DNA from: Nitrosomonas cryotolerans ATCC 49181
Lineage (GTDB): Bacteria > Pseudomonadota > Gammaproteobacteria > Burkholderiales > Nitrosomonadaceae
DNA: 64,000 nt
Assembly: GCF_900143275.1 (NCBI RefSeq)
Contig: NZ_FSRO01000001.1
Location: 248,001-312,000, forward strand
Direction of reading: 5' to 3'
The position numbers were made by a program, and so were the translations under genes. Shown one piece after another: positions 37,838 through 42,172 of this stretch. Position 1 is the stretch's first letter, and every line of letters begins with the position of its first letter. The notes beneath the pieces were generated by a model. That model did not search any database and was not told the DNA's origin. It saw only the letters and a list, made by a program, of their open reading frames with translations.

Positions 37838-38995
37838 TTAACTGACAATGCCATTCATGCGTCTAAGTTCTGTACAAATATGATTAATTGCTTTAAGAAA
37901 ATTTTCTACTTGCAACAAGGTATTGCTGGCACCCAGGCTCACTCGGACAGCACAACGTGCGAGTATTGGTGAGATGCCCATGGCTTCTAGCACATGACTT
38001 TGTCCAGGATTCACACTGGAGCAGGCTGCCCCGCTTGCGACGGCAAATCCTGCTTTATCAAGTTGAACAACCAGGGTGTCACCTTCAATATCAGGCAGGG
38101 CAAAATAACAGGTATTGGGTAAACGCGTTGCTCCTGAACTGAAAATAACGGCACCCATTTCATGTAATCCTTGCTCCAGGCGTGTACGCAAAGCGCTGAC
38201 GTGTTGCGCAGTTTTTTCTATGCGCGAATGAGCTAATTCGCAGGCAACTCCGAAACCGACAATAGCGGGCACATTTTCGGTGCCTGAGCGCATCCCATTT
38301 TCGTGACCGCCGCCATAAATGAGAGGTTTTAATAATAGGCGTTTGTCAACAATTAAGGCAGCTGCTCCTTTAGGCCCATAAATTTTATGTGCCGATAAGG
38401 TCATGGCATGGACTTTGAGTAATGTGAAATCTAGCTGAATTTTGCCGAGTGCCTGTACGGCATCCGTATGCATCCAGGCGCCGTGTGATCTCGCTATTTC
38501 TGCAATACTGGCGATATCCTGTATCACACCTGATTCATTATTTGCCAGCATGACAGAGACCAATCCGGATTTCTGTTTTGTCAGGATGCCGCCCGCTGCC
38601 TCCAGATCTAATTGTCCCTGGTCATCTACAGCCAACCGCTGCACTACCCATTTGTCGCTCGCCCTGCGGGCCAGTTCCTGGGCTGGGCGCATGATACAAG
38701 GATGCTCTATGGCGCTGATAAAAATGCCTGAGGGTTTTAGACTGTCAGCCGCGCCTCTAATAAATAGGTTGTTAGCCTCTGAGCCGCCGCTGGTAAAAAT
38801 GACCTGCACGGGTTGCACTCCAACAACTGCCGCGATTTGCGCGCGCGCGCGATTAATAGCGTGACGGGCTGCCGTACCGTAGCTGTGCCGACTGGAAGGA
38901 TTGCCAAATTCCTGCTGGAAATAGGGCAGCATTGCTTCAAATACGGCATCATCTACCGGGGTGGTCGCATTATGATCGAAATATACTTGTGCCAT
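37838..38995 (-). CDS. Cysteine desulfurase, NifS/IscS-like
   Basis: A 385-residue class V aminotransferase-fold PLP enzyme, releasing sulfur from cysteine as a persulfide for Fe-S clusters or thiolation. Visible are YFDHNATTPV at the N-terminus, TSGGSEANNL, HTDAVQALGKI, the PLP lysine in LSAHKIYGPKG, and the active-site Cys loop ASGAACSSVN. Spelling of the loop fits the group I NifS/IscS enzymes. No iscU, iscR or nifU is adjacent and the gene is not in a visible operon. The next 299 bases to the left end of the tnpB element contain no recognised feature. Confidence 0.9.
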   Translation of the reverse strand: MAQVYFDHNATTPVDDAVFEAMLPYFQQEFGNPSSRHSYGTAARHAINRARAQIAAVVGVQPVQVIFTSGGSEANNLFIRGAADSLKPSGIFISAIEHPCIMRPAQELARRASDKWVVQRLAVDDQGQLDLEAAGGILTKQKSGLVSVMLANNESGVIQDIASIAEIARSHGAWMHTDAVQALGKIQLDFTLLKVHAMTLSAHKIYGPKGAAALIVDKRLLLKPLIYGGGHENGMRSGTENVPAIVGFGVACELAHSRIEKTAQHVSALRTRLEQGLHEMGAVIFSSGATRLPNTCYFALPDIEGDTLVVQLDKAGFAVASGAACSSVNPGQSHVLEAMGISPILARCAVRVSLGASNTLLQVENFLKAINHICTELRRMNGIVS

Positions 38996-39294
38996 GGGTT
39001 CAGTGTAGTATTGGTCTCAGTAGTATTGGCCTCAGTTTTTCAATAGTATTTATGGGTATTCCATATTCACAATATTGTTTAACCGGCTGTTATCCGACGA
39101 GCTTGTAAAACATAGTGATATCAAGCAGATTTGAAACTTTCAATTTATTCCGATTTGATATAAACACGGTTATGTGACTCTCATCGTGACTTGAGCATAG
39201 CATTAAATGTGGTCGTATTGAAGTAGCCACATCAGTTCAAACATTTACCAAAATTTATCAAACAGGAAGATCGTCGTATCCAAGGTTTTATCAT
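38996..39294. other. Intergenic region before the tnpB element (299 bp)
   Basis: No gene is supported. One plus-strand frame stays open from about 39199 across the left end of the element, but it has no convincing start or recognised similarity and continues into the IS, so it is treated as chance. The promoter of the cysteine desulfurase should lie at the left side of this stretch. Confidence 0.4.
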
Positions 39295-39398
39295 CTCAAC
39301 TTCCGGAAAACCCCGGTCTTAAGGCCGGGGATGGATAGGGAGTCAGCTTCGCTGATACTAAAGCCTGTTTTTTCACCTATTTCTGTTACAGTGTGTTA

Positions 39399-40531
39399 AT
39401 GGAAATTAAGCGCGCATACAAATTCAGGTTTTACCCAACTTTTGAGCAAGAAACTATTCTGGCTCAAACATTCGGGTGTGCTCGGTTTGTCTATAATCGC
39501 ATGTTGCGCGTTCGTTCTGATGCTTGGTATACCGAGAAAAAAGAATCGGGTATCATGCTACCTCCTCTTTGTTGACCGAGTTAAAAAAAGAGCCTGAATT
39601 TGAATGGCTGAACAAAGTTTCCAGTGTTCCTGTGCAGCAATCTCTCCGCCACCTGCAAACGGCATTTGGTAATTTCTTTGCCAAACGAGCCAAATACCCG
39701 TCATTCAAAAGCAAGCATGAGAAGCAATCGGCTGAATACATGTCCAGCGCCTTCAAGTGGGACGGTAAGTCTCTGAAACTGGCGAAGATGAAAGATCCAC
39801 TGAATATCAGATGGTCGCGCACCCTTCCTAAGGCAACAAAACTAACGATTGCAACAGTCTCTAAAGACTCAGCGGGTCGATACCATGTTTCTATGCTTTG
39901 CGACGACTCTGTTGCGCGAAAGCCAAGGGTTAGCGGCAAAGTCGGCATTGACTTAGGATTAACGCACTTCGCTATTCTTTCTACGGGCGAGAAGATTGCG
40001 TCTCCTAACACGCTACGAAAGAATGAAACCAGGCTTGCTAAGCTGCAACGCAAGCTATCTAAAAAGCGCAAAGGGTCGGCCAATAGACAAAAAGCCAGAC
40101 TGAAAGTAGCGCGACTACATGCAGGAATTGCTGATGCTCGTAAAGACTTTCTACATAAACTCTCAACACGGCTAGTGAACGAAAACCAAGTGATAGCTGT
40201 AGAGTCTTTAGCTGTTAGCAATATGAAGAAAAATCGTTGCCTCGCAAAATCAATTTCCGATGCAGGATGGGGTGAATTTGTGCGGCAATTAGAATACAAG
40301 TCGCTGTGGTACGGGCGAGAGCTTGTAGGTATTGACCGATGGTATCCAAGCAGCAAACGCTGCTCGGGATGTGGGCATACCGTAAACAAGATGCCTTTGA
40401 ATGTGCGTGAATGGACTTGTCCGGAATGCGGATCAATCCATGATCGAGACATCAACGCAGCGCGTAATGTTTTGGCCGCTGGACTGGCGGTGTCAGCCCT
40501 TGGAGAATCTATAAGTCCTGTTTGCATTTAG
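39399..40531 (+). pseudogene. tnpB: TnpB RNA-guided nuclease, frameshifted
   Basis: The first part (ATG 39399 or GTG 39393) reads MEIKRAYKFRFYPTFEQE and stops at 39575. The second frame resumes near 39544 as RIGYHATSSLLTELKKEPEF and runs to 40531. The junction is an A6 run at 39538-39543; one extra A would restore a single frame (EKK-RIGYH). All catalytic parts are in the second segment: RuvC-I Asp at codon 39950 (VGIDLGLTHF), RuvC-II Glu in VIAVESLAVSNM, the zinc finger CSGC...CPEC, and RuvC-III Asp in HDRDINAARN. So the only visible lesion is the N-terminal frameshift. TnpB uses an omegaRNA from the element's right end to cut DNA next to a TAM. Confidence 0.85.
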
Positions 40532-40593
40532 GTGCGTTCGGGTTGGATTCGTTGAATTGGGAATCCCCTTCGTTTACGGAGGGGAGCAGTCAA
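40532..40593 (+). ncRNA. Right end RE1 / 3' part of the omegaRNA of the tnpB element
   Basis: The sequence after the tnpB stop begins GGTGCGTTCGGG-type (GTGCG from 40532), contains TTGAATTGG and a hairpin CCCCTTCG/CGGAGGGG at about 40565-40584, and ends GAGCAGTCAA. Such right ends encode the scaffold of the TnpB guide RNA in characterised IS200/IS605 elements. Bases immediately downstream (from about 40594) would serve as the guide, here GAGAACGGAACCAGGC. The exact RNA 5' end, normally inside tnpB, is unknown. Confidence 0.55.
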
Positions 40594-40755
40594 GAGAACG
40601 GAACCAGGCTTGTCAAATTGCAGCAGCGAATGGCAAGGAAACGGTGTGGTGCTACAAACAGACGTAAAGGCAGATTAAAAACAGCATGGTATGTTTTAAC
40701 CACCGGGCTGCGAGACCGAACCCTGGAAGATAGTGTGAATCCTGTTGGCATTTAG
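40594..40755 (+). pseudogene. Internally deleted second tnpB remnant
   Basis: The frame ENGTRLVKLQQRMARKR continues through GRLKTAW and jumps directly to YVLTTGLRDRTLEDSVNPVG. It matches two separate parts of the neighbouring TnpB: NETRLAKLQRKL...RLKVA, and NVLAAGLAVSALGESISPVC. The approximately 120 codons between (RuvC-II Glu, zinc finger and RuvC-III Asp) are deleted, and everything upstream of the NETRL motif is missing too. It is a relic of a related element abutting the right end of the larger one. Confidence 0.78.
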
Positions 40756-40821
40756 GTGCGCTCAGGTTGTGATGATTGAATTGGAAATTCCTCTCCTGCA
40801 GGGAGGAGAGGGAGCAGTTGA
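40756..40821 (+). ncRNA. Second right end RE2 / omegaRNA-like tail behind the tnpB remnant
   Basis: Directly after the remnant's stop the sequence is again a right end: GGTGCGCTCAGG, TTGAATTGG, a hairpin CCTCTCC/GGAGAGG at about 40791-40812, and GAGCAGTTGA. It parallels the first right end base for base in outline but has a different, compensated stem. If transcribed it would give an omegaRNA-like tail followed by the guide GCAGTATTGAAAGAAT. Expression is unknown. Confidence 0.5.
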
Positions 40822-40908
40822 GCAGTATTGAAAGAATATACCAAGGATACGGCGTAAATGGTTTTCGAAGAAGGATCGTTAACGTGTCTCTTTTTTTATT
40901 TACTTACA

Positions 40909-41019
40909 AAGACCGCTGCATAACTGTATTTTTAAGCTTTTCTGATTACTTGCAGCATTGATAAATCAAACACTTAAAAATCTTGCCCAGCCCGAGATAA
41001 CCAGTTATGCAGCGGTCTT
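40909..41019. repeat. MITE-like element with 18-19 bp inverted repeats and 5-bp direct repeat
   Basis: AAGACCGCTGCATAACTG at 40909-40926 is perfectly inverted at 41002-41019. Inside, ATTTTTAAG (40928-40936) and CTTAAAAAT (40973-40981) form a second inverted pair. TTACA lies directly outside both ends (40904-40908 and 41020-41024), as expected for a target-site duplication. The 111-bp unit has no coding capacity, so it fits a miniature inverted-repeat transposable element mobilised in trans. It ends 13 bp from the CHRD gene stop and may also act as a terminator. The IS family was not identified. Confidence 0.7.
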
Positions 41020-41032
41020 TTACAGGGTGTTC

Positions 41033-42172
41033 TTAATTTAGAGTGGGCGTATTTTGTGTCCTGGTCGCACCCAATAGATTTCGTTCCGTATGTACATTGG
41101 TGTAAGTCTGGTTTGCAACGAAAGCGGCTAATTGTTCAGATTCCAGCACAGTATTGTCAGGAACGATCCATTTACCGTTTTCAGTTGGCTGTAAAGAGAT
41201 GATGATCGGGCCGATACGTTGCTCGGCCGTTTGTTGATGAATATGAATTCCATTTGCAATTATTGTCGTTTCCGTGTCAGGAAGCACGTAGCCTGTGATT
41301 ACTCGGGTTTCTAGATCGACAGTATAGCTTGCAGTACAGGTGGCGTAATCAGTGCCCACACTATTTAATTCATCTTCCACCGGTATGGTGGCTGCTTCCT
41401 CGACTTGGCTGCAAGCCGTCAAAGATGTGATGGTACGTTGTTCAGGGATGATTTGTGCTCTCAATTCGCCGCCTTTGTTAGTTGCGGTATGCACGTTAAA
41501 GTATAGCTCTCCTCTCAAAAATGCGTCATATTCATCTAGTGTCAATTGAGTTCTGGCATCTATGGAACCGTCTGCGGTCCCATCACCATCTTGGTCTAAG
41601 GGGTTCAAGCAGCTTCCTTCAATTCTGGGAATCCCTTCAACTGCCCCAAGAGAGAAAAAAGTGCGGGCAGTACAATCATTGCGAGAGAGTTGTATCAGGG
41701 TTTTATTATCCGATTGATCATTGTCTATTTGCATACGCAAGATAATCGGACCATCAGTATTGATAGAACCATTATGAATATGGGCCTGAATGATATCCGT
41801 TACATTTTCGCAGATGATGGCGGCCTCTATGGCACGGGTGCTGTTTACGACGCGCACTATTCCTCTGCAGCCGCCGGCTGAGGTGATGTTTTCCGTGATT
41901 TCTTCCGCAGGATTCAAGGCGACTCTGATTGTTTGGTAGTCCGGTGTCCCTCTGACTAAAGGCGCGTTAGCATTGCTGACTGTAAAACGTTCTAACGTTA
42001 CGCCAACGTTAGTAAATTCCTGATTAGGGTCGGAATCAACGGTTATATTTGGCAAAATAAGTGTGTTATTAGCGCTGTTAAAGTTAGGAATCTGTAAATG
42101 ATCGGCTTCTGATACTAAAGAGAAGCATAAGACACCTGCTCCTATTATGGATGTGGCCATAAATTTCTTCAT
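41033..42172 (-). CDS. Secreted two-CHRD-domain protein
   Basis: A 379-residue exported protein with a signal peptide (basic MKK, hydrophobic SIIGAGVLCFSLVS). It contains two CHRD domains, the fold first seen in chordin: domain 1 about residues 60-245 with AHIHNGSINTDGP and LYFNVHTATNKGGELRAQI, and domain 2 about 250-375 with IHIHQQTAEQRIGP and YTNVHTERNLLGA. CHRD proteins of bacteria are of unknown function, often extracellular; the His pairs suggest a metal or ligand site. Six-plus cysteines suggest disulfides. A GGGAGAAAAC ribosome binding site precedes the ATG. Domain 1 has a DQDGDGTADG calcium-loop-like insert. Confidence 0.83.
   Translation of the reverse strand: MKKFMATSIIGAGVLCFSLVSEADHLQIPNFNSANNTLILPNITVDSDPNQEFTNVGVTLERFTVSNANAPLVRGTPDYQTIRVALNPAEEITENITSAGGCRGIVRVVNSTRAIEAAIICENVTDIIQAHIHNGSINTDGPIILRMQIDNDQSDNKTLIQLSRNDCTARTFFSLGAVEGIPRIEGSCLNPLDQDGDGTADGSIDARTQLTLDEYDAFLRGELYFNVHTATNKGGELRAQIIPEQRTITSLTACSQVEEAATIPVEDELNSVGTDYATCTASYTVDLETRVITGYVLPDTETTIIANGIHIHQQTAEQRIGPIIISLQPTENGKWIVPDNTVLESEQLAAFVANQTYTNVHTERNLLGATRTQNTPTLN

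Follow-up and report, generated by a model that had tools for sequence, protein, structure and literature searches.

Tandem right ends in Nitrosomonas cryotolerans: probably a young TnpB-only IS200/IS605 insertion in or beside an older tnpB relic

Two right ends of IS200/IS605 type stand in tandem in the genome of Nitrosomonas cryotolerans ATCC 49181 (2.9 Mb, 2 contigs), with a fragment of tnpB between them. TnpB takes its guide from the flank downstream of its element (Karvelis et al. 2021, PMC8612924), and a reading of the sequence alone had correctly noted that the guide position after the first right end holds tnpB-derived sequence. The locus therefore raises the question whether such a guide is aimed at TnpB elements or whether it is simply what an insertion at this place leaves behind. 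We analysed it within a window of 64,000 nucleotides (the whole stretch of DNA, to which all positions refer) and compared it with the rest of the genome and with related genomes. The best explanation, to which we assign a probability of about 90%, is an ordinary nested or adjacent IS200/IS605 insertion, in which a young element lies in or beside an older, diverged relic.

The insertion sequence (1.3 kb, 39287-40593) has a cysteine desulfurase gene (37838-38995, minus strand) on its left and a gene at 41033-42172 on its right; all its parts are on the plus strand. A TTTAT motif at the left border (39287-39291) is followed by the left end (39292-39398), whose GC-rich hairpin (CCCCGGTC TTAA GGCCGGGG) is conserved in 19 copies, and by tnpB (39399-40531). 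The first right end (RE1, 40532-40593) comprises a hairpin (40564-40585) and a terminal TCAA (40590-40593), and is presumably also the 3' part of the omegaRNA scaffold. The tnpB fragment (40594-40755) and the second right end (RE2, 40756-40821, with a hairpin at 40788-40813 and TTGA at 40818-40821) follow on the same strand in the order that had been claimed for them. An Rfam search of the window returned zero families. Further downstream, positions 40908-41020 hold a MITE-like element of 113 bp whose 19-bp terminal inverted repeats (AAAGACCGCTGCATAACTG) are perfect; several genomes of the genus contain sequences 72-78% similar to it, with one 37-nt stretch at 97%.

The borders of the young element are defined by its copies. 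There are 19 full-length copies in the genome, the one in the window and 18 others, 17 of which are at least 98.9% identical to it and one 92%. All 19 are preceded by TTTAT, the upstream flanks being otherwise unrelated, and all 19 end in TCAA, after which the DNA is again unrelated. The right ends of the 18 other copies read GTCAA in every case and CAGTCAA in 17, which fixes the RE1 boundary at 40593/40594, exactly where the sequence-only reading had placed it. The element thus has the fixed left target motif, the lack of a target duplication and the conserved right-end tetranucleotide of the IS200/IS605 family. By analogy with ISDra2 (PMC8612924), we take TTTAT as its TAM. The guides of the 19 copies are all different and correspond to their respective downstream flanks, so the guide of RE1 (40594-40613, GAGAACGGAACCAGGCTTGT) is ordinary flanking DNA that happens to be part of the tnpB remnant.

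Some copies depart from this pattern. One of them (L017), set against L151 and L152, has a variant tail, GGATGTCAA, typical of a TnpA+TnpB family that this genome also contains; its sequence suggests that right ends have been exchanged between the two families. Six shorter copies (L133-L138, e.g. G000:C1:2355489-2356461) are 89-93% identical to the element, keep the TCAA right end and have in common an internal deletion of about element positions 708-1024. In L135, a TnpB of 267 aa that lacks the middle of the nuclease domain is still open.

The tnpB of the window copy had been described as intact, which proved wrong. It lacks one A that is present in 18 of 18 other copies (element column 251, about 39537), so that the frame breaks some 46 codons in. 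The Pfam domains PF12323, PF01385 and PF07282 are all found, split over two frames. Since the deletion lies within a homopolymer of A, the assembly may be at fault here. Programmed frameshifting was also considered and ruled out, as all 18 sister copies carry the extra A. Most sister copies have an open tnpB frame, and the protein of one of them (L006) scores 428.6 bits with NF038281 (cut-off 425) and 381.9 with NF040570 (cut-off 100), which places it in the TnpB family of IS200/IS605 elements, TnpB-only, IS1341 type. An omegaRNA from the window copy, if made, would have to rely on TnpB from a sister copy, because its own tnpB is broken.

Both right ends fold as hairpins, as had been noted. 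The fold z-scores are -3.5 (hairpin) and -2.6 (longer stretch) for RE1, and -1.9 and -0.7, respectively, for RE2. Across 20 right ends, 91.7% of the cells of a nine-pair stem are paired and both sides have changed at 7 of the 9 pairs; only 0-3 of 500 shuffles reached as high, and the stem lay above all slid controls in both pairing and covariation score. The hairpin has therefore been kept by compensatory change, and its conservation across the family fits selection on active elements. The earlier claim that both hairpins at this locus are under selection holds to that extent but is not supported for RE2: the terminal TCAA is gone from this end, and folding persists in other decayed right ends, so its hairpin may simply have been inherited. 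TnpA may also recognise the right-end hairpin as single-stranded DNA, and conservation of the hairpin is therefore not specific evidence for an RNA structure. By position and hairpin, RE1 fits a putative omegaRNA/reRNA with its guide.

The fragment behind RE1 is a relic of an older and diverged tnpB, as comparison with the sister copies and with homologs indicates. It matches TnpB at residues about 208-238 (31 aa at 55% identity) and then continues, in the same frame, with the 25 C-terminal residues; about 114 codons have been lost in between. At the DNA level its identity to the element is 61-67%, which sets it far apart from the sister copies. RE2 is about 76% identical to RE1 over 71 nt and ends in TTGA where RE1 has TCAA. 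At least five other decayed right ends (L144-L148) are found elsewhere in the genome; they are 68-73% identical, carry hairpins and fold to varying degrees. RE2 is best read as a fossil of the same class. Searches in plasmids, phages, 80-85 genomes of the genus and about 400 of the order gave no close relative of the relic, only weak TnpB similarity, and no orthologous empty site was found, the intergenic region failing to align in relatives. We consequently infer the order of events from the state of decay and from the borders.

The remnant starts exactly at the RE1 border, and we asked what lies on the other side of the insertion. When the flanks are joined, they read in one frame (...QTGRSSYPRFY\|ENGTRLVKL...), and NF038281 gives the joined peptide 17.0 bits, co-linear over residues 9-62 (54 residues). 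The right part alone reaches 13.5 bits, and the left flanks of the 18 other copies with the same right part 13.1-15.3, so that the true flank ranks first of 19. With our own profile of five TnpB sequences, the joined peptide ranks 18 of 265, the comparison peptides having been built from window stretches that end in TTTAT. Pfam reported nothing relevant on the joined peptide. We take an insertion inside the old gene to be likely, with 39223-39286 (plus strand) as a possible, weakly indicated 5' continuation of the older tnpB. A variant of the same explanation, which we consider possible but clearly the less probable of the two, is that the relic had been truncated before the element inserted beside it, the neighbouring TTTAT stemming from unrelated intergenic DNA. 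This would agree with the DNA-level test, in which continuation of the old tnpB into the left flank was not significant, and with the remainder of the 291 nt up to the cysteine desulfurase gene, which shows zero tnpB similarity. However, it would require the element border and the truncation to coincide exactly, and it does not account for the joined frame coming out on top against NF038281. The biological conclusion is the same whether the insertion lies inside the old gene or beside it.

The proposal that the two right ends are maintained together as a unit, the first guide of which targets tnpB and attacks rival TnpB elements, has in its favour the tnpB origin of the guide and the conservation of right-end hairpins in the family. 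The match on which it was built is real: GAGAACGGAACCAGGC (40594-40609) and positions 40019-40034 agree in 13 of 16 bases, with three mismatches, and the similarity of the guide region to tnpB extends to 28 nt at 79% (chance expectation for such guide matches, 0.22 per window, with none counted for the sequence itself). However, this site in the element's own tnpB reads TACGA-AAGAATGAAACCAGGC, with TACGA instead of TTTAT before it, and the mismatches fall on guide positions 1, 5 and 7. In one archaeal TnpB, any guide mismatch strongly lowered editing beside a weak TAM, and mismatches were tolerated beside the cognate TAM (PMC11043419); the TnpB studied here may behave similarly. When the whole genome was searched for TTTAT followed by 15 nt of the guide, at most three mismatches being allowed, the single match was the locus itself, which has GTCAA at the TAM position. 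No tnpB gene of this genome was found to offer a TAM together with the target, and the claim that the guide targets TnpB elements therefore falls. Sites with TAM and guide at 2-3 mismatches occur in 11 of 84 other genomes of the genus, scattered and once or twice in each; a control with the reversed pattern gave matches in 9 genomes. The guides of the other copies, all different from one another, do no better: beside TTTAT, none comes closer to element sequences of either family than 8 mismatches in 16. Together with the broken tnpB of the window copy, the decayed terminus of RE2 and the fact that the arrangement of RE1, remnant and RE2 was seen once, this leaves the proposal highly improbable, and the guide is no weapon against other TnpB elements. 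It is scarcely more probable that the guide accidentally acts against a rival lineage, in which case the TnpB-omegaRNA complex would cut and home into surviving copies of the older family that keep TTTAT-GAGAACGGAACC.

We also considered that the remnant and RE2 arose from the same element, by tandem duplication or rearrangement followed by deletion, and not from an older, independent insertion. The two right ends do belong to the same overall family, and the exact start of the remnant at the RE1 border could be read in this way. On the other hand, left-end sequence is missing between RE1 and the remnant, and a remnant at 61-67% DNA identity, set against 17 sister copies at 98.9% or more, must have diverged long before the present burst of copies. 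We regard this origin as very unlikely.

An insertion of one element into another is to be expected in this genome, given its 85 TnpB matches (PF07282, TNB domain) and 55 Y1 transposase matches (Y1_Tnp). IS200/IS605 DNA makes up roughly 4% of the genome, as estimated from copy numbers and lengths, so about one of 19 insertions should fall into such DNA. Three of the 19 copies in fact have another IS200/IS605 fragment within 600 bp, and in one case (L010) 18 bp separate the element from an upstream relic of its own family that has a similar deletion. Adjoining this young copy is another nest, an old copy of the family (L140 and L142, G000:C1:2705045-2708320) that is split at about element position 707 by an insertion of roughly 2.5 kb, bounded by TGAAGTGG...CCACTTCA and with AAG repeated.

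The 1.3-kb element contains no tnpA. In the larger TnpA+TnpB family of this genome, TTTAT stands 5' of every examined copy, and the right-end hairpin GGAATCCCCTTCGTTTA...TCAA is common to both (89% over about 35 nt). Since the element lacks tnpA and has these two features in common with that family, it is natural to infer that it is moved in trans by the family's TnpA. Across 84 other genomes of the genus, the TnpB-only element had zero matches at E <= 1e-20, and a separate scan of genome contigs found none; the closest relatives observed sit on a plasmid of Burkholderia stagnalis (73%) and on a viral contig (L129, 76%). The 19 copies here, their absence from the other genomes of the genus and the location of the nearest relatives suggest a recent acquisition.

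Under the nested or adjacent insertion that we favour, a TnpB-only element of about 1.3 kb would have transposed to a TTTAT in or at the edge of the relic, whose tnpB had presumably lost a large internal piece by then. RE1 would then belong to the new element as its right end, and RE2, now decayed, to the old one. As the omegaRNA guide is read from the DNA that directly follows the right end, it would here consist of old tnpB sequence. If RE1 is expressed, if its RNA is processed to an omegaRNA and if an intact sister copy supplies TnpB in trans, this TnpB should cut only the empty site (TTTAT followed by GAGAACGG...) that excision restores, and such cutting would favour the retention of the window copy. 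The sole cognate target, TTTAT-GAGAACGG, would then be the donor joint, which has been proposed as the normal target of TnpB elements (PMC8612924).

The locus is of little importance in itself. It illustrates that ordinary nesting of insertion sequences can give rise to a TnpB guide with transposon sequence, and that a guide should be called 'aimed' only after its TAM, and the variation of guides from copy to copy, have been examined. For work on TnpB, the genome offers a good natural series: 19 nearly identical TnpB-only copies, deletion derivatives, graded relics and a larger TnpA+TnpB family that has the target and the right-end hairpin in common with the TnpB-only copies.

Among known systems, the element resembles the IS200/IS605 elements with TnpB (ISDra2, IS608 and the TnpB-only IS1341 type) in its subterminal hairpins, in the short target motif 5' of the element without target duplication, and in the HTH, OrfB and TNB domains of its TnpB. 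The TCAA right border is found in IS608 as well. Unlike ISDra2 and IS608, the present element has no tnpA, and its motif is TTTAT, as against TTGAT in ISDra2 and TTAC in IS608. TTTAT is also given as a TAM of the ISDra2 and ISYmu1 TnpB proteins (PMC12908284). The guide is taken from the downstream flank, as in the known elements (PMC8612924). The locus as a whole is like other nested insertion sequences, in that a young, nearly identical multicopy element sits at its target motif in or beside a diverged and deleted relative; there is no substantive difference from them, and the guide merely happens to be transposon-derived.
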